Positions 1 to 35,551 of a stretch of 35,551 nucleotides of DNA are shown here, piece by piece (position 1 is the stretch's first letter; every line of letters starts with the position of its first letter). The translations under genes and the position numbers were made by a program. The notes beneath the pieces were generated by a model. That model was not told the origin of the DNA. It ran no database searches and saw nothing but the letters and a program-made list of their open reading frames with translations. Source of the DNA: a virus; the IMG/VR virus record IMGVR_UViG_3300020467_000018, positions 1 to 35,551 of that record. One strand, written 5' to 3'.

Positions 1-86
1 TGGCTGGTCAATTAAAACAAAAATCGTCGATCAAATGACTGACGAAAATATTATAACCATGAAAGCCATTGTTAAAGATGAACAAG
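1..86. repeat. Terminal direct repeat, left copy
   Basis: Bases 1-86 match 35466-35551 at 85 of 86 positions. The one difference is at base 10 (A here, T at the right end); it is the third base of a Ser codon and is silent. The reading frame of the annealing-protein gene continues through the joint. The simplest reading is a circular or circularly permuted genome whose assembly runs past its own start, rather than a biological terminal repeat. Confidence 0.9.
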
Positions 87-487
87 GAAGAACGCGCGCC
101 GTTGGTCATGCGAAAGAGATTAAAGGCGACAAGGGAATTAATAGCACAAGCCACATCGAGAACTGCGAAACCTCTGCTATTGGTCGAGTGTTAGCGTGTC
201 TAGGTTTAGGCGGCACAGAGTTTGCTAGTGCAGAAGAAATAGCGGCGGCCTTGATTCAACAGAAAGAACAGGAAGAAGTTGGTGAAACGGAATACCGAAA
301 GGCTGAAAAGGAGTTTTATAAACTCGTAAAGTACGACGAAAAAACCGGAGAGTTAAAGGGGACGATTATTGAGGTTAAAGAGGCGATAGAAACAATAAGT
401 GCAAAACATCCCCCGAACGTCGTGAAGAAAATGAGCATGACTTTTGAGCATTTTGAAGATGCTTTGGCAGAAATAGATGCAGTCTGA
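2..487 (+). CDS. Putative single-strand annealing recombinase (C-terminal part; gene starts at 35326)
   Basis: This is the larger part of a 208-residue protein whose true start is ATG 35326; the frame runs unbroken through the terminal repeat, and an internal ATG at 35 is not the start. The segment TSHIENCETSAIGR followed by a glycine-rich LGLGG and an ASAEEIA motif is typical of a phage family often placed beside recombination genes and sometimes called Rad52/Erf-like. The middle of the protein carries a GHAKEIKG segment. The neighbours are a YqaJ exonuclease, overlapping by 11 bases, and SSB, which is the usual exonuclease, annealing protein and SSB trio. The role (annealing ssDNA during phage recombination) is inferred mainly from this context, since the fold cannot be verified by eye. 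Confidence 0.7.
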   Translation, partial: GWSIKTKIVDQMTDENIITMKAIVKDEQGRTRAVGHAKEIKGDKGINSTSHIENCETSAIGRVLACLGLGGTEFASAEEIAAALIQQKEQEEVGETEYRKAEKEFYKLVKYDEKTGELKGTIIEVKEAIETISAKHPPNVVKKMSMTFEHFEDALAEIDAV

Positions 488-3166: not shown

Positions 3167-4473
3167 CTATAATTTTCGGTACTCGCAAAAAGACTTTTCA
3201 ATTTAAACGAGACGATTCGATAGAAACCCAGAAGGAAGCTAGTCAACTCCGCAAGGAGATTTACAGCGACCTGGCAGACGGCTCCGTTTCTTTTCATAAA
3301 ATCCAAGAAACTTATTTTGGCAAGGTTATCAATAAGGCGCCGCGAGGGAGTGGCACTCTCCATGATGTCCTTGAAAATTGGATCGAATACTGCAAACCGT
3401 ACCGAAACAAGCGTAAGGGATATAAGGGAAAGACTTTAAATTTAATTAAACAAACAATCGAAAATAAGTTTATTCCCGAACTAGGCCGTAAGCGGTTAAA
3501 AAATATTACCTATCAAGACCTTTTCGACTATTACCACTCTCCAGAGTTTGCTCACCTCGACCCAAAAAGTTTCCAGAATTGGAATGGCTACCTAGCAAGG
3601 ATGTTCAAACACGCATTTATCCATATGAATATAAAATGTGCGCCCTTTCCCACGGACAACATGATCTATCCAGAAGCTAGGATAGACCCGGCTTTAAAAG
3701 TTATATTCCCTTATGCGCCGGAAGAAGTTGAAGCATTAATTAAATATATCATCGAGCATTTTTCTATCGACATACAGCTATACTTTGTCCTATTTCGCGG
3801 ATTAGGTATAAGGCCTTGCGAATCACTTGCGTTAGAAGAAACAGATATTGAAGGCGACTATATCCATGTTACTAAAGGCATGGTCGAAAATGAGATAGTG
3901 CCGCCTAAGAATTGGAAGTCCAGAGAGGTCTATGTACAACCTCAAGTGATGGAAGTCTTGCAAAAATATCTAGCTATTAAGAAGAAATACAATCCTGTGT
4001 TTAACCGGAATGTTACGAAAATAGAAAAGAAGGCTATACCTTTGTTCCAGGCAGGTAAAACCCGCTACTTATTTGAGAACGGACAACGCAAGCATCACGT
4101 TAATATGAGGCGGTTTAATCGAGCTTGGACGGAAGCTCACCACGCAGTAAGGCTAGATAAAGCGACTGCTGAAAAGCTCTATATCACCAACAAAAGAGAA
4201 CTGTTAGCTCTCGATGCCGAGGCGTTAGCCAACGATGAGCGCCTTACTCCTTATCTAAAGCAGCAAATCCCACAGAGAGACGCCTATAAACTCAGGCACA
4301 CTCGCGCTAGTGAATTAATTAGCAGCGGTGCCGCCGACGAAGGCCCTTTTGAACTCGGACATGACCCCAAGATGTTCTTTGATATTTATGCAAAACAAAT
4401 ACAGGCATATAAGAAAAAAGAGCATGAATCAGAGCGCAGAAAGAAGCTCACTTCTGTGGTCAAAATATCATAA
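3118..4473 (+). CDS. int: Tyrosine recombinase (phage integrase)
   Basis: A 451-residue site-specific recombinase from ATG 3118 (GGGAAAA-type ribosome site upstream). The open frame extends to 3034, but that part translates through the xis gene. The catalytic domain shows R232 in FRGLGIRP, K267 in KNWKSREVYV, Y390-x-x-R393 followed by HTRAS, H415 in ELGHDP and the nucleophile Y424 in FFDIYAK. The first His of the usual HxxR box is Tyr here. The N-terminal arm- and core-binding domains occupy roughly residues 1-190. It ends at the candidate attP beside tRNA-Glu, so integration into that tRNA gene is the likely reaction. Confidence 0.93.
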   Translation: MAKFTGVRTQRGSTRITIIFGTRKKTFQFKRDDSIETQKEASQLRKEIYSDLADGSVSFHKIQETYFGKVINKAPRGSGTLHDVLENWIEYCKPYRNKRKGYKGKTLNLIKQTIENKFIPELGRKRLKNITYQDLFDYYHSPEFAHLDPKSFQNWNGYLARMFKHAFIHMNIKCAPFPTDNMIYPEARIDPALKVIFPYAPEEVEALIKYIIEHFSIDIQLYFVLFRGLGIRPCESLALEETDIEGDYIHVTKGMVENEIVPPKNWKSREVYVQPQVMEVLQKYLAIKKKYNPVFNRNVTKIEKKAIPLFQAGKTRYLFENGQRKHHVNMRRFNRAWTEAHHAVRLDKATAEKLYITNKRELLALDAEALANDERLTPYLKQQIPQRDAYKLRHTRASELISSGAADEGPFELGHDPKMFFDIYAKQIQAYKKKEHESERRKKLTSVVKIS

Positions 4474-4494
4474 ACGCGAACGCAAAACGCGAAC
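4472..4494 (+). repeat. 23-bp repeat, copy 1
   Basis: Identical to 4668-4690 and, in inverted orientation, to 27273-27295. Each copy is itself two aaacgcgaac units spaced 13 bases apart. This copy overlaps the last two bases of the integrase stop codon. A weak GCAAA/TTTGC stem followed by a T-run (to about 4506) could also serve as the integrase terminator. Confidence 0.85.
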
Positions 4495-4580
4495 ATTTGC
4501 ATTTTTGAAATTTTAAGTTGTTGATTTAATTAGATATTTGGTCTAAAAGTTGCCGGGATGAAAATCAACGATCGTGTGCT

Positions 4581-4665
4581 CTGTGAGTAGCTGTGAGTAA
4601 GTAAAGTATTAGCAAAACCAATAACTTAGCTAAAAACTTACTCAGAGAAACTCGCAGCAACTCAT
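4581..4665. repeat. Cluster of GAGT-cored repeats, candidate integrase arm or Xis sites
   Basis: Two direct copies of CTGTGAGTA lie at 4581-4589 and 4591-4599. On the opposite strand CTCTGAGTAAGT (4636-4647) matches the second copy at 11 of 12 positions, followed by CTGCGAGTT (4649-4657) and ATGAGTT (4659-4665). The 10-base spacing and opposed orientation resemble arm-type or Xis binding sites in attP. Confidence 0.5.
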
Positions 4666-4667
4666 AA

Positions 4668-4690
4668 AAACGCGAACGCAAAACGCGAAC
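4668..4690 (+). repeat. 23-bp repeat, copy 2
   Basis: Identical to copy 1 at 4472-4494. It ends three bases before the -35 hexamer of the tRNA promoter. The downstream sequence can form a CGCAAA/TTTGCG stem followed by CTATTTTT, so a terminator role is an alternative to protein binding. Confidence 0.85.
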
Positions 4691-4693
4691 GCT

Positions 4694-4722
4694 TTGCGCT
4701 ATTTTTAACTTTTATTTATAAT
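4694..4722 (+). promoter_or_regulatory. Stable-RNA type promoter for tRNA-Glu
   Basis: A TTGCGC -35 and a perfect TATAAT -10 (4717-4722) are separated by 17 bases and followed by a GC-rich discriminator (GCGCGG), as in bacterial tRNA/rRNA promoters. The start would fall near 4729-4731, about 10 bases before the tRNA. Confidence 0.75.
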
Positions 4723-4740
4723 GCGCGGCGATGTTGTAAC

Positions 4741-4816
4741 GTCCCGTTCGTCTAGAGGCCTAGGACACTGGGTTTTCATCCCAGCAACAGGGGTTCGAAA
4801 CCCCTACGGGACGCCA
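4741..4816 (+). tRNA. tRNA-Glu (anticodon UUC)
   Basis: A complete 76-base tRNA with encoded CCA. The acceptor stem pairs GTCCCGT with ACGGGAC. The anticodon arm is CTGGG-TTTTCAT-CCCAG with anticodon TTC at loop positions 3-5. The T arm is AGGGG-TTCGAAA-CCCCT. It closely resembles gammaproteobacterial tRNA-Glu. It has its own promoter, lies beside the integrase, and ends three bases before the stop codon of the convergent ejection-protein gene. It is likely both the attachment target sequence and an expressed tRNA. Confidence 0.97.
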
Positions 4817-22067: not shown

Positions 22068-22108
22068 GTAATTTTCACCGTAACAGCAATATTAGTATTT
22101 GTAAAACA

Positions 22109-22125
22109 ACTTAATTTCACTAATT
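22109..22125 (-). promoter_or_regulatory. Degenerate operator-like site after the portal gene
   Basis: ACTTAATTTCACTAATT (read on the + strand) matches the operator at 33861-33877 at 13 of 17 positions. It sits at the portal stop, within the late operon, so it may be chance in an AT-rich gap. Confidence 0.25.
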
Positions 22126-27397: not shown

Positions 27398-27414
27398 TAT
27401 TAATTTCGCTAATG
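27398..27414. promoter_or_regulatory. Operator-like palindrome 1, TATTAATTTCGCTAATG
   Basis: It matches the site at 33861-33877 at 16 of 17 positions and fits TATTAR-N5-YTAATA with one end mismatch. It lies just upstream of the ardC -35 element. Confidence 0.6.
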
Positions 27415-27421
27415 TAATTAC

Positions 27422-27450
27422 TTGACACTACGATATCCTATATATTAGAT
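27422..27450 (+). promoter_or_regulatory. Promoter of the ardC operon
   Basis: A perfect TTGACA -35 (27422-27427) is followed after 17 bases by TTAGAT (27445-27450). The -10 lies within operator 2, so repressor binding there would block RNA polymerase. Confidence 0.65.
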
Positions 27451-27459
27451 TTACTAATA
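27443..27459. promoter_or_regulatory. Operator-like palindrome 2, TATTAGATTTACTAATA
   Basis: A perfect 6-bp inverted repeat with a 5-base spacer that covers the -10 of the ardC promoter. It is the same form as the site before the CI-like gene (34553-34569). Confidence 0.7.
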
Positions 27460-27470
27460 CGAGTTAGAAA

Positions 27471-27487
27471 CATTAATATTATTAACA
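27471..27487. promoter_or_regulatory. Operator-like palindrome 3, CATTAATATTATTAACA
   Basis: It matches the site at 34360-34376 except at two outer positions. It lies between the ardC promoter and its ribosome site. Confidence 0.5.
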
Positions 27488-27510
27488 GCAACATAGGGGA
27501 ATCTAGAACC

Positions 27511-28377
27511 ATGCAAGATCTAAATAAGAAATTGACAGAACAAATAATCGAGCAAATGGAAACACTCGGAGATAACTGGCTCCGTCCTTTTGGTGCGATT
27601 GGCGGCGCTCCCATCAATGCGATAACGGGCGAGCACTACAAGGGCGGTAACTACATGATGTTTTCATTGTTCGCGGATTGTCATGTATTAGCGACATATA
27701 AACAATGGCAATCAGTAGGCGCTCAAGTACGCAAGGGCGAGAAAGGTATAGCGGGATTCAAGTACGGGACTTTTGTTAAAGAGAACGCACAAGGTAAAGA
27801 GCAGACGCATAGCTATGCAAGTAGTTTTACAGTTTTCTCTATCACACAATGCGATAACGTGCCGGATTGGATTATAGATGCCGCTGGACTTAATGAGAAA
27901 GTAGATACTACGGAAGTCGTTAAGAATATCGACGAGTTCATCAAGAACACAAAAGCTAAGGTGACGACCGGCCAGCCTTGTTATATACCTAGTCAAGACA
28001 CTATCCAAATGCCGGACCGATCCAGCTTTGTATCGAATACCGATGCTTCATCTACCAGCCACTACTATTCTACATTCCTACATGAACTAACGCATTGGAC
28101 TAAAGGCCCCGGCCGATTAGATCGCAAATCTGGCAAGCGTTTTGGTGATCCAGCCTATGCGTTCGAGGAATTAATAGCTGAACTAGGCGCCGCTATGCTA
28201 TGCGCTCGTCTAGGCCTCGATCAAGAACCTACGCCGGACCATGCCAAATATCTGAACAACTGGCTTAAGGCCTTAAAGAAAGACACTAAGCTAGTATGGG
28301 ACGCTGCAAAGTACGCACAAGCGGCCGTCGATCACCTACTCACCTATCAGCCTGAAAACTTCAAACTGGCCGCCTAG
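27511..28377 (+). CDS. ardC: ArdC-like antirestriction protein
   Basis: A 288-residue protein with the ArdC two-domain plan. The N-terminal ssDNA-binding domain (about 1-130) contains NWLRPFGAIGGAPINAITG and VGAQVRKGEKGI. A C-terminal zincin-like domain has HELTHW (H191, E192, H195) and a downstream FEELIAELGAAM helix supplying E224 as third ligand. ArdC proteins protect incoming DNA from host restriction. The gene leads the + strand accessory operon, has its own strong promoter under three operator-like sites, and uses an AGGGGAATCTA leader that recurs at two later genes. Confidence 0.87.
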   Translation: MQDLNKKLTEQIIEQMETLGDNWLRPFGAIGGAPINAITGEHYKGGNYMMFSLFADCHVLATYKQWQSVGAQVRKGEKGIAGFKYGTFVKENAQGKEQTHSYASSFTVFSITQCDNVPDWIIDAAGLNEKVDTTEVVKNIDEFIKNTKAKVTTGQPCYIPSQDTIQMPDRSSFVSNTDASSTSHYYSTFLHELTHWTKGPGRLDRKSGKRFGDPAYAFEELIAELGAAMLCARLGLDQEPTPDHAKYLNNWLKALKKDTKLVWDAAKYAQAAVDHLLTYQPENFKLAA

Positions 28378-28395
28378 CGCGGCCTTGGAGCCTAT

Positions 28396-28566
28396 ATGTA
28401 TAACCTAACATTCTACTTTAAAACGCCTCACGGCGCTAGTTATTGGGGCGGTCATCACCTCAATATTTCATTCAGTGAGGCCGTCGATTTTATGAACCAT
28501 TATCGCCGTGGCTATTTTGATAATAAAGAAGTTTTATTCGATCTATCGCCTATCGGCATTAACTAA
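28396..28566 (+). CDS. Small hypothetical protein, 56 aa
   Basis: ATG 28396 follows TTGGAG. The product opens MYNLTFYFKTPHGASYWGGH and is aromatic- and His-rich, with a middle helix FSEAVDFMNHYRRGYF. No family is recognised. It sits 18 bases after ardC and 15 before the next gene, so it is part of the same operon. A role in countering host defence is possible from position only. Confidence 0.65.
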   Translation: MYNLTFYFKTPHGASYWGGHHLNISFSEAVDFMNHYRRGYFDNKEVLFDLSPIGIN

Positions 28567-28581
28567 CCAAAAGGAATCAAC

Positions 28582-28824
28582 ATGAATAACTTAAAAACTA
28601 TTTTTAAAATTGCGGAGCATTTCGACGGAAAAATTGCGGGGTGTGATCGTCTATCTTTAGCGATGGATATAGACGCCGTGAATGACATAAACCCATTAAA
28701 TCTAGAAGCGATGCTAAACGATCTAGACGGGCCTCACACAGCGCACGACGTTTATGGAATCGCTGCAAATTTCGATCGTAAAACTTTAACTTTACAGAAT
28801 GGATGGACGCCGCGATTTACATAA
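28582..28824 (+). CDS. Small hypothetical protein, 80 aa
   Basis: ATG 28582 is preceded by AAAAGGAATCAAC, a good ribosome site. The protein is acidic, with MNNLKTIFKIAEHFDGKIAG at the start and LNLEAMLNDLDGPHTAHDVY in the middle. It has no membrane segment or Cys cluster. Unknown function; member of the ardC operon. Confidence 0.65.
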   Translation: MNNLKTIFKIAEHFDGKIAGCDRLSLAMDIDAVNDINPLNLEAMLNDLDGPHTAHDVYGIAANFDRKTLTLQNGWTPRFT

Positions 28825-28927
28825 GTTAGCTACAGAAGAACAGAACGAAGAACCAAGCCTTAAAAAGTTTGACCGAGATGCTTTTATTAAAAGCATTATA
28901 AACGATGACAACCAAGGAGAACGATGA
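28799..28927 (+). CDS. Small hypothetical protein, 42 aa
   Basis: The frame MDGRRDLHKLATEEQNEEPS... runs from ATG 28799 to TGA 28927. It overlaps the upstream gene by 26 bases and the next start as ATGA. It fills what would otherwise be a 99-base gap and shows coupling typical of this genome. The ribosome site is weak, so it probably depends on upstream translation. The product is charged and helical. Function unknown. Confidence 0.5.
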   Translation: MDGRRDLHKLATEEQNEEPSLKKFDRDAFIKSIINDDNQGER

Positions 28928-29160
28928 TGAGTAAAATAAGTGAAACGTTAGACAAAGAAAAAACCTACGGGATAGATGTTTGGGAAGATGCAACTTACTT
29001 CCTGTACGACAAAAAAACAGGGGAGCCTCATGCGGATGAGGACGGACAAGTCATTGTATATAGGAAATCTGGCTACATCCAACACACCAAAGCAGATGGC
29101 ATTGAGATTGATGAGTTGGAAAATGTACTTTATAGAGGCAGGCGAAAAGGCGCACAGTAA
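28924..29160 (+). CDS. Small acidic hypothetical protein, 78 aa
   Basis: Two adjacent ATG codons (28924 and 28927) follow AAGGAG; the second has the better spacing, while the first gives the ATGA coupling. The product has a DVWEDATYFLYDKKTG strand pair, an acidic PHADEDGQVIVYRKSGYI segment and a basic end, suggesting a compact beta fold. No homologue is recognised. It belongs to the ardC operon. Confidence 0.65.
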   Translation: MMSKISETLDKEKTYGIDVWEDATYFLYDKKTGEPHADEDGQVIVYRKSGYIQHTKADGIEIDELENVLYRGRRKGAQ

Positions 29161-29204
29161 AGCTAAAGGGCCAAAATTTAACTAACCAATTAAAACTTAA
29201 TGAT

Positions 29205-29222
29205 GGGCCTCTAATGAGGCCC
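29205..29222 (+). promoter_or_regulatory. Hairpin leader before the SH3-like gene
   Basis: GGGCCTC-TAAT-GAGGCCC forms a perfect 7-bp stem. It is followed directly by CTAGGGGAATCTACA and the ATG at 29238. No T-run follows, so this is not a standard terminator; it may set messenger stability or ribosome access. Confidence 0.6.
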
Positions 29223-29237
29223 CTAGGGGAATCTACA

Positions 29238-29432
29238 ATGAACGTAGCCATTGGGGATAAGGTTAAAGTGATAGATCAGGAGATCACTGGCACCGTAATC
29301 GAGGACTATGGAAACAAAGTAGTGATTGAAGAAGATGACGCAGAAATTGAGCTTTCTGTTTTTTCAGAATTTGAAGATGACACACTTTTGTTTTTTAAAT
29401 CAGACTTGGAACTAAATGAAGGGCCTAACTAA
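29238..29432 (+). CDS. Small SH3-like beta-barrel protein, 64 aa
   Basis: ATG 29238 is preferred because it follows AGGGGA; an upstream in-frame ATG at 29214 lies inside the hairpin leader. The sequence MNVAIGDKVKVIDQEITGTV followed by an IEDYGNKVVIEEDDAEIEL strand pattern resembles an SH3/KOW-type small barrel and is markedly acidic. Its stop codon lies inside the second hairpin leader. Possible roles are nucleic-acid mimicry or regulation; unproven. Confidence 0.62.
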   Translation: MNVAIGDKVKVIDQEITGTVIEDYGNKVVIEEDDAEIELSVFSEFEDDTLLFFKSDLELNEGPN

Positions 29433-29438
29433 AGGCCC
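29421..29438 (+). promoter_or_regulatory. Hairpin leader before the 66-aa gene
   Basis: GGGCCT-AACTAA-AGGCCC forms a 6-bp stem whose loop contains the stop codon of the preceding gene. It is followed by TAGGGGAATCTAAG before ATG 29457, matching the first leader in design. Confidence 0.6.
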
Positions 29439-29456
29439 TAGGGGAATCTAAGCAGC

Positions 29457-29657
29457 ATGAAAGTATTAATTATTACCGACAACGACGCCTGTTTTCTTGA
29501 AGTAATACAAACAGCGGAATTATTTGGATTTGATGAAAATAAATATCTGGACGGCACCGATCCAAAATATACCGCTAATTATGCCGACGCTATGTATGTT
29601 GAGGCAATCTCACATATAGAAAGCCGAGGTATAAAAGTTTTAGTTCAAGATCAATAA
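29457..29657 (+). CDS. Small hypothetical protein, 66 aa
   Basis: ATG 29457 lies after AGGGGAATCTAAGCAGC. The protein starts MKVLIITDNDACFLEVIQTA and has an alternating strand-helix pattern ending IESRGIKVLVQDQ. It is acidic and soluble. The name and role are unknown. A 14-base piece spanning its last codons (TTCAAGATCAATAA) recurs at 30060-30073 near the operon end, as if a fragment were duplicated. Confidence 0.62.
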   Translation: MKVLIITDNDACFLEVIQTAELFGFDENKYLDGTDPKYTANYADAMYVEAISHIESRGIKVLVQDQ

Positions 29658-29697
29658 ATGATAATTTACAATCTGATAAAAATAGAGGAATCAAACA

Positions 29698-30042
29698 ATG
29701 ACCGAAGAAGAATTTAAAAAAGAAATTTACGAGCTGGCTTTTGGAGTTGGCCCTTACAAACCTGAGCCTAAAGAAGTTGTAGAACGGATTGAAAAATACA
29801 CCAATGATTCTTTTCTGGTTGAAGATTTGGAAGTAAAAGTTAATGACGCTATCAAACACCTGTGGGGTAAGAAGGGTGAAATAGACCCTGACTTGTCATT
29901 AGGATTGCGTTTAAGAAACAACATTGAAAACGAAGAAAATGAAAAGACTCTCAATGCCATCAACACAATCATCAAAGCATTAAATCAATTCCACACTTCA
30001 AACAATGACAATGGTGAAACTGACACTTTTAAATATTATTAA
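29698..30042 (+). CDS. Hypothetical protein, 114 aa
   Basis: ATG 29698 follows GAGGAATCAAACA. The product is helical and charged, with KEEIYELAFG-like start (MTEEEFKKEIYELAFGVGPY), a central EVVERIEKYTNDSFLVEDLE, and a polar C-terminus. No known domain is seen. It is the last clear gene of the ardC operon and faces the convergent NinG-side genes after a short gap. Confidence 0.62.
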   Translation: MTEEEFKKEIYELAFGVGPYKPEPKEVVERIEKYTNDSFLVEDLEVKVNDAIKHLWGKKGEIDPDLSLGLRLRNNIENEENEKTLNAINTIIKALNQFHTSNNDNGETDTFKYY

Positions 30043-30074
30043 GAAGGACAATGATGCAAATTCAAGATCAATAA

Positions 30075-30185
30075 TCAAATCTCATCATAAACGATCTTTA
30101 GAAATCGACTAGCAACTCTTATATCACTTTTAGCGGCCTCCGGAGCGTTCTTGAGGTCGCTAACTTCATTCATTAAGATCAGCAC
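30075..30185 (-). CDS. Possible small gene after ninG, 36 aa
   Basis: An open frame continues after the ninG stop, from GTG 30185 (or ATG 30173) to TGA 30075. It encodes MNEVSDLKNAPEAAKSDIRV and a short helix ending YDEI. The frame is also open back to 30470 inside ninG, but that part is low-complexity Ser/Asn/Lys and looks like a shadow. There is no good ribosome site. Kept at low confidence. Confidence 0.3.
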   Translation of the reverse strand: MLILMNEVSDLKNAPEAAKSDIRVASRFLKIVYDEI

Positions 30186-30186
30186 A

Positions 30187-30927
30187 TTATTCGTTCTTAT
30201 CCCAATAACGCCATCTTGTTCCGGTATGACATTTAATAGATTCCTTTCGGTATTCTGTTGTGATTGGGTAGCTTTTTGAGTTGTCCTGGCGTTTGAATTG
30301 TTCGAGCGTTTTTCTGTACGCAAGTTTTTGTTCGTACTGTTCGCGGTCTTTCCTAAAGTGCTTTTCATAAATTCGCTTTTTTCTTTGATAGAGTTTTTTG
30401 ATTTTTCTGAGGTCGGTATGGTTCCACTTTTTGATTTCATTAGTTGCCTCAATTTTTTCAACTCGCTCAATTCCTATTCGCTTTATTAACTCGACTCGAT
30501 ACGGCACCAAATTTCCAGACAGATAACGGTTACAATGCTTACAGGCTGAGAAAATATTATTCGGATCATAACGTCTAAAACTGCCGCCCTTGGCGCTTCC
30601 CCTCGGCAAGTAGTGGCTAGCGTCCGTCCCGCCGCCCCTTCCGTGGGGACTTGGAGGCTTGCCACAGCTTACGCAAGGCTTGTATCTGTCTCTAACTCTG
30701 ATGTAAGCGTTAAAGGCAGTCTGAGCCTCTGCTAGTCGCTGCGGTATTGTCTTTATATCATCCTTGCGCCGCTGCAAATCTTTCCTGTAAACCTTCTCGC
30801 CTGCCTTCCGGCCTTGTTCGCTCTTGGTAAAGCTAAATACACAAGTCCAATTACAGAATATATTCAGGTTGTGCCGGAGCGCTGTTTTTTCGTTAACCTT
30901 TTTTTTACAGTGTTTACACTTTCGCAT
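30187..30927 (-). CDS. ninG: NinG (Rap-like) recombination protein
   Basis: A 246-residue protein with an N-terminal CKHC...C-x3-C zinc site (C4, C7, C25, C29). A second, HNH-like part has CVSCGKP (C85, C88), DASHYLPRG (H105) and FSACKHCNRY (C129, C132). A Lys/Arg-rich C-terminal tail follows. This is the lambda NinG family; lambda Rap resolves branched recombination intermediates. It follows the helicase, NinB and a small coiled-coil gene. The ATG overlaps that gene by 14 bases. Confidence 0.88.
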   Translation of the reverse strand: MRKCKHCKKKVNEKTALRHNLNIFCNWTCVFSFTKSEQGRKAGEKVYRKDLQRRKDDIKTIPQRLAEAQTAFNAYIRVRDRYKPCVSCGKPPSPHGRGGGTDASHYLPRGSAKGGSFRRYDPNNIFSACKHCNRYLSGNLVPYRVELIKRIGIERVEKIEATNEIKKWNHTDLRKIKKLYQRKKRIYEKHFRKDREQYEQKLAYRKTLEQFKRQDNSKSYPITTEYRKESIKCHTGTRWRYWDKNE

Positions 30928-31069
30928 TTTGTTCTATTGCTGCTTTGAGTAATTCTCTCAGTTCATCAACGGAGTCCTGTAGCATTTCAATCTGTCCTTG
31001 AACCTCGCCAATTTTCCGAGCCGCTTCAATGGCCTCGTCACCTGTAACCTTAATCATAAACTCGTTCAT
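30914..31069 (-). CDS. Small coiled-coil protein, 51 aa
   Basis: ATG 31069 overlaps the ninB stop as ATGA, and the stop at 30914 lies inside ninG. The product MNEFMIKVTGDEAIEAARKI continues into a clear heptad-like helix, LQDSVDELRELLKAAIEQ. It is missed by 60-codon cut-offs but is well supported by overlaps on both sides. Probably an oligomerising accessory factor; function unknown. Confidence 0.68.
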   Translation of the reverse strand: MNEFMIKVTGDEAIEAARKIGEVQGQIEMLQDSVDELRELLKAAIEQNAKV

Positions 31070-31485
31070 AAGCCGCCTTTGTCGGGGAACTCGGTAGACA
31101 CACCGAACTCTCTAGATAATTCTCTGTTAATAACTTCGTACACTTGCCCTACTTGCCCTCGCTCTAGCTTTGTCGTTGAATCAATTTCGAACATGGCTTT
31201 CATTATTGGCTTCCATAGATTTTCCTTAAAACTTTCTTGCGTCCAAGGAATCTCAAAACTTGGCTTCAAAACTTTTCGTTGGTCGAGTCCATGTAAATTC
31301 AATCGGTCGGCGGCCAGTTTGCAGTACAAATGTATAGCGTTATTCTGTCGGCTCGATCTGCGTTTAATCGTCGTATACTGCACTTGTACATATTTTTTGC
31401 TTGAATATTGCGCCTTCAATTCCTCAATAGCTTGTTCAAGCTGAAAGTCGTTGGTAATAATTCTGAACTCGCCACTAATTGACAA
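31066..31485 (-). CDS. ninB: NinB-family recombination protein
   Basis: A 139-residue protein with the family core SSRQNNAIHLYCKLAADRLN, then PWTQESFKENLWKPIMKAMF and LERGQVGQVYEVINRELSRE. Lambda NinB (Orf) binds ssDNA and mediates loading of recombinases over SSB. The upstream-most start is TTG 31485, overlapping the helicase gene by 11 bases; no ATG occurs early, so a non-ATG start is required. It lies between the helicase and NinG, as in lambdoid nin regions. Confidence 0.85.
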   Translation of the reverse strand: MSISGEFRIITNDFQLEQAIEELKAQYSSKKYVQVQYTTIKRRSSRQNNAIHLYCKLAADRLNLHGLDQRKVLKPSFEIPWTQESFKENLWKPIMKAMFEIDSTTKLERGQVGQVYEVINRELSREFGVSTEFPDKGGL

Positions 31486-32449
31486 AATAAATAGCCTTAT
31501 CCGATCGGTCGCCGATTAACTGCCTTGAACCGCTGTGCTGATATAAAGCGATGGTGCCTTGGAAAGCATTAAAACGGTTCTTAGCGACTATCAAACGTTG
31601 GCAAGGCGTCCGGTCTACATACTTTTGATCTGCCTCGCTTAATGTCTCGCCGTACTTGTGAACATCTTGCAAAAGTTTTTGTTTTTTCTCGTCTTGATGG
31701 CAAAGAAGCACCACGGCGGCAACGTCGGTGATACTGCTCGAACCCCTTACGCTGTTTTTGTTTGGCCTTCCTTCCCCTTGGTACTCTCCCGGTTTTCTAT
31801 TGTGAGCCACTAACATAACGTGCATATCATGAATCGCAGCAAGTCCTGACAAAGCCGATACAAAATCTCGCTGTTTTGAAAATTCTTCTTGACCTGATTT
31901 AGCGTATAAATCAACCATCATTAGCGAATCAACAACGACCAATTTACAACCCATTGAACCTAGAGCTTCGACGGCGCCAAGCACTCTCATCGCTTTAACG
32001 TCTCCAATTTGGTCGTAACAGTAAATTCTGTCAGTCGCATACTCACAAAAATCTCTCACTACTTGTTGTGTAACCGTTTTCTCACTCACTCCCGCTTTCA
32101 TAGCGGCCATCATTTTCGTTAAGTAATTCACTCTCATTTCAAATGATGCAAAACCTACTTTGTGTCTTTGTGATGTGTGAAGGAGTTGCAAAACAGAAAG
32201 CGTCGTTTTCTTCTGGCCGCTGCTACCCGCTAAGATGCTGATATATTTAAGCGGTAGAGCAATATCTTGATTTGTCTTTCCCCAAGGCAGCGGGATGCCG
32301 TCTAATTGGAATCCGTTTTCCATTTCCTCTATCGCGGAGTTGGCATACATTCCGAGGTGCTTGATGTAGTCGGTCTGCGCTGTCGCCATCGACTTCTGCA
32401 AATCTCGGTCGTTAAAGTTTGTTAGGTTTATTCTCTCTATGTCACTCAT
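31475..32449 (-). CDS. DnaB-like replicative helicase (RecA-fold core)
   Basis: A 324-residue protein with mainly the C-terminal RecA-like core; the normal N-terminal DnaB collar domain is missing or very short. Walker A is ILAGSSGQKKTTL (residues 72-84), with Lys80 where the consensus has Gly before the catalytic Lys81. FASFEM supplies Glu104, Walker B is KLVVVD with D174, and SVRGSSSITDVAAVVLL is the sensor-like H4 region. It would unwind the fork in partnership with the upstream initiator/loader, to which it is coupled by ATGA. Confidence 0.83.
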   Translation of the reverse strand: MSDIERINLTNFNDRDLQKSMATAQTDYIKHLGMYANSAIEEMENGFQLDGIPLPWGKTNQDIALPLKYISILAGSSGQKKTTLSVLQLLHTSQRHKVGFASFEMRVNYLTKMMAAMKAGVSEKTVTQQVVRDFCEYATDRIYCYDQIGDVKAMRVLGAVEALGSMGCKLVVVDSLMMVDLYAKSGQEEFSKQRDFVSALSGLAAIHDMHVMLVAHNRKPGEYQGEGRPNKNSVRGSSSITDVAAVVLLCHQDEKKQKLLQDVHKYGETLSEADQKYVDRTPCQRLIVAKNRFNAFQGTIALYQHSGSRQLIGDRSDKAIYFVN

Positions 32450-33057
32450 AAGTAATTTTCTGTTTTTGTTTCCGCGAAAGTGGATGCCTTATTTCTCTTT
32501 TCCCAAGTCCTGACACAGCCTCGCCAGTCTTTTATTTTGTTCTTGCCCCGATACCATCCGTTAGCGGTGTAATGGTCTACAAATAATTCGGCGTTGATGT
32601 TATTTGAGCGTTCGTCACAATATTCTTTAACCTGGTCAACGGTCGGAGGAACAAACTTCGTTTTTCCCCCTATATTATTGTTTACTTGTTTAGATGTGGC
32701 CCTTTGCTGGCCCTTTGATGGCCTTTGGCTGGCCTTATCTTGGTAGCTTTCGTAGTTAACTATTGAAATTAAAGTATATTTATTAGTTTTTTGCTGGCCT
32801 ATCATGTCGTCTTTTTCTAACAAATTTAAATACCTTCTAATTCGCTTTTCGGAAATGCCTAATTTAATTGAATATTTTATTCTTCCGAAAACTAACTGCC
32901 CTCTTTTGACAGTTAATAAACTGCCGTTAAACATCGTTTTTTTTTCTTCCCAATTAGCCTCTAATAACAACGCCATCCAAAACTTCAACGCTTCCGGTTC
33001 TTCCCAAATCCAGTGTTTCATCATCTGCCGATGAACCGTAATAAATCCTTCGCTCAT
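32446..33057 (-). CDS. Replication initiator / helicase-loader-like protein, 203 aa
   Basis: The N-terminal half is a winged-helix domain of the phage replisome-organiser type: LKFWMALLLEANWEEKKTMF, KRGQLVFGRIKYSIKLGISE, then RIRRYLNLLEKDDMIGQQKT and SIVNYESYQ. A Gln/Lys/Ser linker (about 105-128) follows, and a C-terminal domain ends ADWRG-like with IKDWRGCVRTWEKRN. Such proteins bind origin repeats and bring in the helicase. The linker is encoded by an 11-bp iteron array, as in lambda O. Coupled by ATGA on both sides. Confidence 0.78.
   Translation of the reverse strand: MSEGFITVHRQMMKHWIWEEPEALKFWMALLLEANWEEKKTMFNGSLLTVKRGQLVFGRIKYSIKLGISEKRIRRYLNLLEKDDMIGQQKTNKYTLISIVNYESYQDKASQRPSKGQQRATSKQVNNNIGGKTKFVPPTVDQVKEYCDERSNNINAELFVDHYTANGWYRGKNKIKDWRGCVRTWEKRNKASTFAETKTENYL
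32698..32741. repeat. Four tandem 11-bp iterons, candidate replication origin
   Basis: On the + strand GGCCCTTTGCT, GGCCCTTTGAT, GGCCTTTGGCT and GGCCTTATCTT lie end to end; a further partial copy starts at 32796. One unit per helical turn is typical of initiator binding. AT-rich stretches flank the array on both sides (32670-32695 and 32761-32792), suitable for unwinding. The array lies inside the initiator gene, as in lambda. Confidence 0.6.
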
Positions 33058-33188
33058 AGTTTGTTTTTATCTTGAAACTTAACGACGACTTCGCTCTCTC
33101 CCCTTGGGAGTTGTTTTATGGTGCCGCCGTTTTGAATGAACTGCTCGGTGTCGTGCTTTATCTTTTCCCTTAGTTTCTCTTTGGACAT
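33054..33188 (-). CDS. Small charged protein, 44 aa
   Basis: ATG 33188 gives MSKEKLREKIKHDTEQFIQN followed by GGTIKQLPRGESEVVV; the GG-x-I-x-QLPRG ending is a recurring pattern in short phage proteins. Its TGA overlaps the initiator ATG (ATGA), which supports translation. It overlaps the 3' end of the primase-domain gene by about 110 bases in another frame. Function unknown; likely a small early regulator or adaptor. Confidence 0.6.
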   Translation of the reverse strand: MSKEKLREKIKHDTEQFIQNGGTIKQLPRGESEVVVKFQDKNKL

Positions 33189-33594
33189 AAGCCCTAAGCC
33201 TTTCCTCTGCGGCGAGTTTAGACTTATGTTCTTCCTCGTCTTGTTCCATTCCATAATTGTTTCTTTCGTTGTAGAAATAGACGATAAGCGTGTCTTCTTC
33301 GAATCGTTCGCGCTCGGCTTTAGATGGTCGATATTCGGGTGTTTTAGATGTATCGCCATAATCTTTAAATAACCTTTGTGGTTCTACGCCCAGGGCGTGA
33401 CAAATATCTTTAAAACGACAGCCTTGGAAGCAGTTAAGAAGCACCCCTTTATCTCCTTCTCTAATACTAAGGCTTTCAGCTTTATCATCGTGAGCCGGAC
33501 ATCTAGCCAGATAACCTCGTTCGTTCTTTCGCGGTGCCTTTCCCGTAATTGACTCGACGAGCAAACAAATATCATTCGCTGTCAGACGCGACAC
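33079..33594 (-). CDS. Primase zinc-binding domain protein, 171 aa
   Basis: The GTG start at 33594 is chosen because it matches the usual short N-terminus (SRLTANDICLLVESITGKAP) and limits overlap; an ATG at 33642 is the alternative. GYLARCPAHDDKAESLSI with C32 and H35, and LLNCFQGC with C55 and C59, form the CHC2 zinc domain of DnaG-type primases. The TOPRIM polymerase domain is absent; the remaining part is a charged helical tail. It may recognise template sites for host primase or work with the helicase. The last ~110 bases are shared with a second gene. Confidence 0.78.
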   Translation of the reverse strand: MSRLTANDICLLVESITGKAPRKNERGYLARCPAHDDKAESLSIREGDKGVLLNCFQGCRFKDICHALGVEPQRLFKDYGDTSKTPEYRPSKAERERFEEDTLIVYFYNERNNYGMEQDEEEHKSKLAAEERLRAYVQRETKGKDKARHRAVHSKRRHHKTTPKGRERSRR

Positions 33595-33838
33595 TTGCGA
33601 TATCCCAAGGGAGCTGACCAATACCCATCGTTTTTTCGACATGGAGCGCGTACAGTGGGCCTTTTACGTGCTTAGGTTTAGGCACTCCGTCTAATTTTTC
33701 GACAGAGAAACGGCGCTCACCAGTGCTAGTCGTTCTTAATGCTTCGGACACAGTTCCCTGAGAGACAGAAAACATATCTCCAAGTTCTTTTTGTGTGAGT
33801 TTTTTTCGGACTTTAAAACTAAATAGTGCTTCTCGCAT
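33572..33838 (-). CDS. Cro-like helix-turn-helix protein, 88 aa
   Basis: The N-terminal half is an XRE-type helix-turn-helix: LFSFKVRKKLTQKELGDMFS followed by VSQGTVSEALRTTSTGERRF. The C-terminal half has no recognised domain. Size and position at the head of the replication operon suggest a Cro-like regulator or replication control protein. The start ATG 33838 has an AGGA ribosome site, and an operator-like palindrome lies 23 bases upstream at 33861-33877. Confidence 0.75.
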   Translation of the reverse strand: MREALFSFKVRKKLTQKELGDMFSVSQGTVSEALRTTSTGERRFSVEKLDGVPKPKHVKGPLYALHVEKTMGIGQLPWDIASVASDSE

Positions 33839-33860
33839 GGCATCCTGTGAAATTAATCTA

Positions 33861-33877
33861 TATTAATTTCGCTAATA
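33861..33877. promoter_or_regulatory. Operator-like palindrome 4, TATTAATTTCGCTAATA
   Basis: Near-symmetric TATTAA-N5-CTAATA just upstream of the Cro-like gene and downstream of the second regulator gene. It differs from the site at 27398-27414 only at the last base. Confidence 0.65.
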
Positions 33878-33898
33878 TGCCACGAAGTATTTTAGATA

Positions 33899-34339
33899 TC
33901 AATGCTCATCGAGAGGATCGACCCGATAAAGTATGCGGTCGTAATATTGGAGTTGTTCTTTTGTTTCTGATTCACGCTGATCTAACACTTTGCGTTGGCT
34001 CTCAACCTGTTTTAAGGTATTTGCTAAAGTGTTTCTATGTTTTCTTGTGTTGTCTAGCATATAGTGTGTGTCGGGTAAATCGCTTAAATAACTAACGGTT
34101 GTTTTTAAAGCGGTGGCAATAGCTATAGCCTCGTTAAGCCTAATATGTTTTTGAGTCCCGTTCATAATTCGGGAAACCACTTCTGAGTCAAGCTGCGCTC
34201 TTTCAGATAATTCATTCCATGTAATCTTTTTTCCTGTTTGTAACTCAATTCGTGCTTTTACGTCATTTGCGCGTATTCTAAAATTCATCTCGTAAGTTTT
34301 TTCCTTTGTGTTTTGCTTCTCCTTTGCTGCAAGTACCAT
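33899..34339 (-). CDS. XRE-family regulator with C-terminal coiled coil, 146 aa
   Basis: ATG 34339 is chosen; it follows GGGGAG, whereas the longer frame to 34441 runs through the promoter and operator. Residues 39-62 (ITWNELSERAQLDSEVVSRIMN) form the helix-turn-helix, followed by LNEAIAIATALKTTVSYLSD. A helical tail with LANTLKQVESQRKVLDQRES may drive dimerisation. It is transcribed leftward from the switch region, opposite the CI-like gene, and its promoter contains operator 5. This suggests Cro-like or autoregulated control of the lytic side. Confidence 0.78.
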   Translation of the reverse strand: MVLAAKEKQNTKEKTYEMNFRIRANDVKARIELQTGKKITWNELSERAQLDSEVVSRIMNGTQKHIRLNEAIAIATALKTTVSYLSDLPDTHYMLDNTRKHRNTLANTLKQVESQRKVLDQRESETKEQLQYYDRILYRVDPLDEH

Positions 34340-34359
34340 ATTAACGCTCCCCTTCCTTA

Positions 34360-34376
34360 TATTAATATTATTAATA
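34360..34376. promoter_or_regulatory. Operator-like palindrome 5, TATTAATATTATTAATA
   Basis: A perfect TATTAA-N5-TTAATA inverted repeat that covers the -10 and spacer of the leftward promoter at 34362-34390. Binding would shut off the XRE regulator and possibly the replication operon behind it. Confidence 0.68.
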
Positions 34377-34390
34377 TCGCGGATTTGCAA
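34362..34390 (-). promoter_or_regulatory. Leftward early promoter
   Basis: On the - strand TTGCAA (34390-34385) and TATTAA (34367-34362) are 17 bases apart, followed by a purine-rich leader and GGGGAG before ATG 34339. The other bases between 34391 and 34552 are AT-rich with no further clear feature. Confidence 0.55.
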
Positions 34391-34552
34391 CCCTACCACA
34401 CTACTTGAAAATTTACAGATATATTTACACTTATTTGACACTTTCTTTAGTTTGTGTCCAAAAAAATGGAATTTTTACCTTCTACGGCCGTCAATCTTTT
34501 GACATATTACAAACAGAGGAGAGAAGGTGTTTAGTTGAATTTGCTTTTTAAT

Positions 34553-34569
34553 TATTAGATGCGCTAATA
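34553..34569. promoter_or_regulatory. Operator-like palindrome 6, TATTAGATGCGCTAATA
   Basis: A perfect TATTAG-N5-CTAATA inverted repeat 30 bases before the CI-like gene. It overlaps a possible weak rightward promoter (TTGCTT at 34541, TAATAT at 34565), which implies autoregulation. Confidence 0.7.
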
Positions 34570-34599
34570 TAAGTTACGGAATCTAATATTTGGAATCAA

Positions 34600-35283
34600 A
34601 TGCCTAAACTTACGGAAGAACAGATACGCGAGAAAGTTAAGCTACACGCGATATATGTTAATAAGGTCGAAACGCAGAAAGCGCGGGGAGAGAAACCCAT
34701 CGACCAAGAACAGATACGCATAGTTTTAGGGCTGAAAACGCAAAGCCGGGTGTCTCAAATAATGAGTTCCCGACCGAATTCTAGCCCACTTACACCGGAA
34801 AATGCTCTGGTGTTCGCACGACTGCTCGACTGCCAGGTTCAGGATTTTGCGCCAAGAATAAACGCATTGCTAAGTGGTACACCCGTTCATCAAATTTCGA
34901 TCATAGAGGGATCGGACGCGGAGATAGCAAAGGCGGCAAGGCAAATGGCAGCAGGTAAAAAGATTACAACTAAGAACGGGCGAAGCATAAGCTACCCTGG
35001 GAATTGTTCAACAGAAGTACGCGCCTTTATTGTAGACAGCGAGGCCATGCAACCCGAATTAACGGAAGGATGTTTCGCTTACGTTGACCCTACAATAGAA
35101 TCAAGCTCTGGTAATGCCGTTTGTTTAGTTCAAGATGATAAACTGGTGTTCGCTAAATATATTGGTAATTCAACGTATGAATTTACTAACAAGAAATTTA
35201 AAGACAGAGTATTCAAACTTAAAGGAAAAGATATTGAGGTCGGCGTAGTTATAGGCACGTTTGTCCCAATGGTAGACCAATAA
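34600..35283 (+). CDS. CI/LexA-like repressor with degenerate S24 peptidase domain
   Basis: A 227-residue protein. The N-terminal ~85 residues hold a helix-turn-helix-like region, IRIVLGLKTQSRVSQIMSSR, followed by TPENALVFARLLDCQVQDFA. The C-terminal domain (about 140-220) matches S24/LexA: RAFIVDSEAMQPELTEGCFA, NAVCLVQDDKLVFAKYIG and KLKGKDIEVGVVIG. The position of the Ser nucleophile (xSM box) is Ala149, while the general-base Lys186 is kept. Dimerisation is therefore likely but self-cleavage is not. It is transcribed toward the recombination and integrase genes, so lysogeny control and integration may share a transcript. Confidence 0.85.
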   Translation: MPKLTEEQIREKVKLHAIYVNKVETQKARGEKPIDQEQIRIVLGLKTQSRVSQIMSSRPNSSPLTPENALVFARLLDCQVQDFAPRINALLSGTPVHQISIIEGSDAEIAKAARQMAAGKKITTKNGRSISYPGNCSTEVRAFIVDSEAMQPELTEGCFAYVDPTIESSSGNAVCLVQDDKLVFAKYIGNSTYEFTNKKFKDRVFKLKGKDIEVGVVIGTFVPMVDQ

Positions 35284-35301: not shown

Positions 35302-35318
35302 TATTAGTAAAATTAAGG
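35302..35318 (+). promoter_or_regulatory. Degenerate operator-like site before the annealing-protein gene
   Basis: TATTAGTAAAATTAAGG has one perfect TATTAG half-site and a partial second half. It lies in the 42-base gap between the repressor and the annealing-protein gene. Confidence 0.3.
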
Positions 35319-35325
35319 TGTATTA

Positions 35326-35551
35326 ATGCTAGAGACAAAAGAATTAGATTTAGCCTCGTTAAGCAAAGAAGAAAAGTTAAGCCTTGGTATCGTGCCGATT
35401 CATGGAAAAGACTATCACTCGGTTGCTCGTCGCGTTGGCTTGTTCAGAGAGAGGGAGCAATATGATGGCTGGTCTATTAAAACAAAAATCGTCGATCAAA
35501 TGACTGACGAAAATATTATAACCATGAAAGCCATTGTTAAAGATGAACAAG
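35326..35551 (+). CDS. Putative single-strand annealing recombinase (N-terminal part)
   Basis: ATG 35326 follows AAGGTG. The N-terminus MLETKELDLASLSKEEKLSL continues through YHSVARRVGLFREREQYDGW into the part encoded at the other end of the window (2-487), giving 208 residues after joining. The VARRVGLFRE...GWSIKTKIV segment is conserved at the start of this phage recombination-associated family. It lies 42 bases after the repressor gene, probably co-transcribed. Confidence 0.72.
   Translation, partial: MLETKELDLASLSKEEKLSLGIVPIHGKDYHSVARRVGLFREREQYDGWSIKTKIVDQMTDENIITMKAIVKDEQ
35466..35551. repeat. Terminal direct repeat, right copy
   Basis: Right copy of the 86-base overlap with 1-86, with a single silent T/A difference. 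It closes the genome into a circle. Confidence 0.9.

Follow-up and report, generated by a model that had tools for sequence, protein, structure and literature searches.

Evidence for a common operator family linking the immunity region and the ardC operon of a marine temperate phage

We analyzed a viral sequence of 35,551 nucleotides (IMG/VR record IMGVR_UViG_3300020467_000018; hereafter, the window), in which 17-bp palindromes of the form TATTAR-N5-YTAATA lie upstream of the genes of a lysogeny switch and of the anti-restriction gene ardC. The results support the idea that the switch region and the ardC operon share one operator family, on the basis of site statistics, conservation of the sites in the same places among relatives, overlap with promoters, and the occurrence of sites at three more ardC homologues and at a gene that replaces ardC. 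The palindromes are very probably operators of a lambda-type immunity repressor, and the most likely ligand is the product of the cI-like gene beginning at position 34600 (hereafter, CI). The view of the window as a marine temperate phage with a common operator at its repressor, early lytic and ardC genes is well supported, although the circuit itself is fairly ordinary.

Operator motif and conserved positions

Only four sites in the window, at 27443, 33861, 34360 and 34553, match TATTAR-N5-YTAATA exactly. The site at 27398 differs by one mismatch, those at 27471 and 35302 by two, and that at 22109 by three. A preliminary description of this sequence had counted six strong sites, all in promoter regions; this count holds for the four exact sites and 27398, all five of which are in promoter regions, but not for 27471. 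A two-mismatch scan against shuffled sequence, as suggested there, yielded 18 matches over the whole window against a shuffle mean of 9.7 (1 of 100 shuffles reached 18). Window-wide counts at this threshold are uninformative, and the signal lies in the exact and one-mismatch sites, for which the promoter gaps showed a strong excess. Within 821 bp of relevant promoter gaps, four exact sites were found against 0.005 expected from dinucleotide shuffles, and five sites with at most one mismatch against 0.12 expected. These five operators are all located in the gaps 5΄ of ardC, the 88-amino acid (aa) helix-turn-helix (HTH) gene, the Cro-like gene and cI.

We then compared the window with related contigs, which were obtained through the CI protein (L007 and L008, 85% identical; L009, 62%; L010, 63%; L011, 52%) or, for a sixth contig, L106, through the helicase. 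Six distinct switch regions were compared, with the window included and L007 and L008 counted as one. The same four operator places are kept in these relatives: 5΄ of the 88-aa gene (O1), 5΄ of the Cro-like gene (O2), 5΄ of cI (O3), and in the gap between cI and the recombination genes (O4). The best mismatches summed across the six were 3, 4, 3 and 8 for O1 to O4, respectively, with shuffle minima of 14–15, and the corresponding sum for the ardC slot in five contigs was 2, with a shuffle minimum of 10. The TATTAR-N5-YTAATA motif is real. The constant 5-bp spacer and the pairs of sites with common spacer sequence are as initially described. One exact site lies at each HTH gene and one at the CI-like gene (33861, 34360 and 34553), and the sites at 27443 and 33861 each cover a –10 element. 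The site at 35302, regarded at that time as only a weak relative, proved to be conserved as an operator among relatives; we accordingly regard O4 as a true conserved operator, by which the predicted regulon extends to the recombination/integration operon.

At cI, the right arm of the operator makes up most of the –10 element of the promoter. In eight related contigs (260,532 strand-bases), the pattern TTGNNN-N18-TAATAT was found just six times, once at each cI. An operator inside the cI promoter is most naturally read as a sign that cI represses itself. The cI ATG lies just 6 bases past the –10 element in three relatives, and judging from this distance their cI transcripts are probably leaderless. 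The start of the Cro-like gene is most likely 34339, not 34441.

CI-like repressor and alternative readings

The CI-like protein was considered the likeliest ligand because its N-terminal domain matches lambda CI, its recognition helix is invariant, and the 17-bp site has the lambda format. When the CI profile was searched against the PDB, the best sequence matches were lambda repressor chains (E about 5e-6, residues 4–87), and the top match in a fold search was 1lmb, the lambda repressor–operator complex (TM 0.80 by target). The CI recognition helix QSRVSQI was invariant in the six relatives.

Alternatively, the sites might serve mainly the Cro-like (33899–34339) or the 88-aa (33572–33838) protein, which would shut down early genes, including ardC, later in lytic growth, with CI playing a secondary role or none. 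Each of these two genes has an operator in its own promoter, and CI and Cro share operators in lambda. Moreover, all six relatives carry the 88-aa gene, whose QxxxS-type helix is fairly conserved (variants QGTVSEA, QGTISTY and QATISGA), and few sites are conserved as well as O1. However, the recognition helices of both proteins vary while the sites persist (SEVVSRI, PETTSRI and EETLGRI in the Cro-like protein, with a replaced helix in L011), whereas that of CI does not vary. In addition, the PDB searches, which were made for CI alone among the three proteins, related CI to the operator-binding domain of the lambda repressor. We therefore consider this arrangement rather unlikely. A far smaller probability was given to the idea that the palindromes serve in partition (through a ParB-like protein) or in replication (as iterons) and are not transcriptional operators, which would suit the ParB-like gene at 2220–2969 and the scattering of the repeats over the genome. 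This idea was rejected, since the operators are kept in L011 and L106, whose open reading frame (ORF) listings show no ParB-like ORF; the sites also coincide with promoter –10/–35 elements and do not form direct-repeat clusters. Finally, TATTA resembles a –10 element, the gaps are 62–83% AT, and matches with up to two mismatches barely exceed chance window-wide, but a by-product of AT-rich promoter composition is disfavored to the point of being negligible because dinucleotide shuffles of the same gaps fail to reproduce the motif and because, in the comparison of relatives, half-site positions 2–5 (ATTA) are nearly invariant over 28 sites while the spacers vary.

Several points nevertheless weigh against CI as the regulator of all of these sites. 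The Cro-like and 88-aa HTH proteins are encoded at the same operators and could bind them too. The fold-search E value was 1.3e-3, and the CI model was of modest confidence, with a pLDDT of 55 overall and about 70–87 in the DNA-binding domain. O2 is exact in L007, L009 and L010, but L011 and L106 have a degraded O2 or none; O4 is weak both in the window (two mismatches) and in L106. Beyond the window genome and its copy in a metagenome-assembled genome (MAG), no contig was found to combine this CI with ardC, and the three other ardC contigs end short of the switch region. Moreover, a missing catalytic serine in CI fits poorly with induction by lambda-style self-cleavage.

This last point concerns the C-terminal domain of CI, which in five relatives resembled Pfam S24 below the threshold (E 2e-4 to 4e-3). 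An hhalign comparison with the CI of Pseudomonas phage H66 spanned both domains (probability 98%), and a sequence search of the C-terminal domain alone against the PDB gave no match. The position of the S24-like catalytic Ser is occupied by Ala, Ala, Ala, Ala, Val and Gln in the six relatives (Ala in the window), and two of the six have Gln or Thr instead of the catalytic Lys; the aligned catalytic position in H66 and phage F116 reads NSM. Since the catalytic Ser is lost in all six relatives, lambda-style RecA-stimulated self-cleavage of CI is unlikely, and induction would require a different trigger. The 34600 product may work like CI, but it is best not classified among the S24 repressors that cleave themselves. 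The original proposal of one repressor over the switch and ardC is partly supported: the common operator family holds, with 34600 as the best candidate binder, and repressor binding, silencing of ardC in lysogens and its release on induction are predictions.

The ardC slot and the proposed circuit

The ardC product contains an ArdcN domain (E 8.7e-21) followed by an MPTase-PolyVal domain (E 5.7e-41), and its translation includes HELTH, which fits the HExxH zinc motif. From gene order and strand, the small downstream genes are predicted to be co-transcribed with ardC. Its three nearest homologues are in L014 (69%), L015 (60%) and L016 (58%), which belong to the same phage group because large stretches of them align with the structural genes of the window. 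Operators were found at most 140 bp 5΄ of ardC in all three (3/3). Among 73 other ardC loci with enough upstream sequence, only L063 and L064 (the same match) had a site, with one mismatch and 346 bp away, and this match is doubtful. A perfect TTGACA adjoins an operator in the window, L014, L015 and L016, and the –10 element is covered in the window and L014. Three sites had been placed at ardC in the window; those at 27398 and 27443 remain, and the third conserved site is at 27462–27478, overlapping 27471 and having the spacing seen in L014.

In L104, the slot that separates the replication genes from the late genes holds a different, unrelated gene, of 170 aa, with an exact site upstream. 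Since the replacement gene keeps the operator, the operator goes with the slot and not with ardC itself. The replication operon of L104 also carries a cytosine DNA methyltransferase-like gene (1580–2425; judged by eye from the first residues), which is possibly an alternative anti-restriction strategy beside the other gene in the ardC slot.

In the proposed circuit, a CI dimer would bind each 17-bp site, with one QSRVSQI recognition helix per TATTAR half-site. The operators, on or beside core promoters, would control cI (negative autoregulation) and the Cro-like, 88-aa HTH/replication, recombination/integration and ardC operons. The repressor would hold down all early transcription units in a lysogen, ArdC included. 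Upon infection, when repressor is not yet present, ardC would fire at once from its consensus-like promoter, and early ArdC could help the incoming DNA to survive restriction. If this is true, phage-borne ArdC acts immediately on entry and is off in lysogens, which is a testable prediction. TATTAR-N5-YTAATA beside TTGACA would then be a marker with which related marine phages could be searched for candidate counter-defence genes in this slot (e.g. the 170-aa gene of L104). How induction works in this phage group is a testable question in view of the missing catalytic serine.

Lambda-type immunity regulons with an anti-restriction operon are a known type of circuit, to which the one proposed here, with ardC, belongs; its notable features are the exchangeable cargo slot and the predicted non-cleavable repressor. 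We tentatively suggest, as a possibility with less than even chances, that these features belong together: a cargo slot located between the late operon and the replication operon would have an immunity-regulon promoter and an exchangeable gene (ardC in four contigs, the 170-aa gene in L104), and, with a CI that does not cleave itself, counter-defence genes would be released independently of SOS or by an anti-repressor. The features are summarized in Table 1.

Table 1. Operators, promoters and genes of the ardC operon and switch region in the window
Feature	Position	Strand	Remarks
ardC operator, distal	27398–27414		TATTAATTTCGCTAATG; 1 mismatch; just 5΄ of –35; counterpart in L014 (9863) exact
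ardC promoter	27422–27451	+	TTGACA-N18-TAGATT (or N15-TATTAG); TTGACA beside operators kept in L014, L015, L016, L104
ardC operator, main	27443–27459		TATTAGATTTACTAATA; exact; covers –10
ardC operator, weak third	27462–27478		AGTTAGAAACATTAATA; 19 bp centre to centre from 27443, as in L014
ardC	27511–28377	+	ArdcN + zincin-like metallopeptidase domain, HELTH (HExxH)
Small genes 3΄ of ardC	28396–30042	+	28396, 28582 (DUF6874), 28924, 29214, 29457, 29698
88-aa HTH gene	33572–33838	–	First of replication operon (primase-like, helicase, NinG downstream)
Operator O1	33861–33877		TATTAATTTCGCTAATA; exact; covers –10 of TTGATA-N17-CATATT (– strand); kept in 6/6 relatives
Cro-like HTH gene	33899–34339	–	146 aa from ATG 34339
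Operator O2	34360–34376		TATTAATATTATTAATA; exact; 20 bp 5΄ of Cro-like ATG
cI promoter	34541–34570	+	TTGCTT-N18-TAATAT
Operator O3	34553–34569		TATTAGATGCGCTAATA; exact; overlaps cI –10; kept in 6/6 relatives
cI-like repressor gene	34600–35283	+	227 aa; lambda-CI-like DNA-binding domain + degenerate S24-like domain
Operator O4	35302–35318		TATTAGTAAAATTAAGG; 2 mismatches; between cI and recombination genes; exact in L011
Conserved 208-aa gene (start)	35326–35551	+	Continues at the other end of the window (1–487)

Genome context and known systems

The ends of the record form an 86-bp repeat with one mismatch, and the 208-aa gene reads across the junction; the record is therefore a circularly complete or nearly complete genome of ~35.5 kb. 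The 208-aa gene is followed by genes for a RecE-like exonuclease, an SSB-like protein, the ParB-like protein and the integrase (int), and tRNA-Glu lies 3΄ of int (complete at 4741–4816). In L009, the 3΄ half of a tRNA-Glu follows the integrase gene in reverse orientation, which likely represents a phage attachment site (attP) in tRNA-Glu. Within the regions 4473–4816 of the window and 9135–9400 of L009, a conserved inverted-repeat element (TGAGTAAGT...ACTTACTCA) is present; in the window it lies between int and the complete tRNA-Glu. In the window, it contains the sole other site with at most one mismatch (4607, between int and tRNA-Glu), which was rejected as an operator; it is part of this element, and its right arm reads CCAATA in both. 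The putative site at 22109 falls within a late-operon gap (22081–22124); a similar imperfect, slightly better palindrome (CATTAATTTTACTAATT) occupies the same place in L014, and L016 does not clearly keep it. A palindrome also persists in the gap 5΄ of the small-terminase gene in L010 (4240, CATTAATCTAACTAATG) and L105 (2787, CATTAGTCAGATTAATG), relatives in which no ardC was seen; it perhaps controls a small gene or the late promoter.

The 55-kb contig G001:C1 (L094, L098, L099) of a Planctomycetaceae MAG consists of the window genome, opened at 28915–28924, and 19.6 kb of a second phage, the junction being at a ribosome-binding-site/start-codon match. Two different phages have probably been assembled into one chimeric contig, so that Planctomycetaceae is not a reliable host assignment and was not adopted. 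The early region of the second, unrelated phage (L098:3394–8049, L099:1529–6747, L107:975–6185) encodes its own CI, Cro-like protein, integrase and DNA polymerase. It has seven exact ATTAG-N5-CTAAT palindromes (0.017 expected), mostly in the gaps of one long early region, with arms kept and spacers differing in its relative L107; this resembles a dispersed-operator system.

No match was obtained when the region was compared with phage records by megablast, which indicates a phage group without a close cultured member in that collection. The closest cultured relatives of the CI DNA-binding domain are the CI proteins of Pseudomonas phages F116 and H66 (Hollowayvirus; about 41% over residues 4–87), which share the divergent cI/cro layout with NinG and NinB, but have an intact NSM catalytic motif and the helix TQSAASHYL. 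Since the F116/H66 switch region contained no exact or one-mismatch copies of the window operator, the site is specific to the phage group of the window.

The ardC product shares its pair of ArdcN and metallopeptidase domains with R388 ArdC, whose anti-restriction activity is needed in the recipient cell (PMC7213743); R388 ArdC is plasmid-borne, whereas the window homologue is encoded by a phage and has a predicted function. In the establishment regulons of pLS20-family conjugative plasmids, ardC and other genes of the entry phase are united by a regulatory sequence that they have in common upstream (PMC8708921). The window is alike in this grouping by shared upstream sequence and, presumably, in rapid transient expression, but the plasmids use other regulatory elements and the window a phage immunity operator. 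Mycobacteriophage stoperators are likewise repressor sites spread in large numbers over the genome (PMC9283540); they are asymmetric and stop elongation, whereas the window sites are palindromes at promoters.

The lambda immunity region is similar in having 17-bp odd-centred operators of similar sequence, a CI with the corresponding DNA-binding domain, cI divergent from a cro-like gene, and an operator on the cI promoter. In lambda, ral sits in the pL operon. Both phages thus have an anti-restriction gene in a repressor-controlled early operon, the control being predicted for ardC; the function of Ral is described in PMC3874165. The lambda operator consensus TAtCACCGCcaGTGaTA (PMC10742460) is equally long and shares with TATTAR the bases at positions 1, 2, 3 and 5 of the half-site. 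In contrast to lambda, which has two clusters of three sites (OR/OL), the window has sites over five promoters, ArdC instead of Ral, a repressor without the catalytic Ser, and an ardC operon that is convergent with the replication operon and separated by ~6 kb from the next operator.

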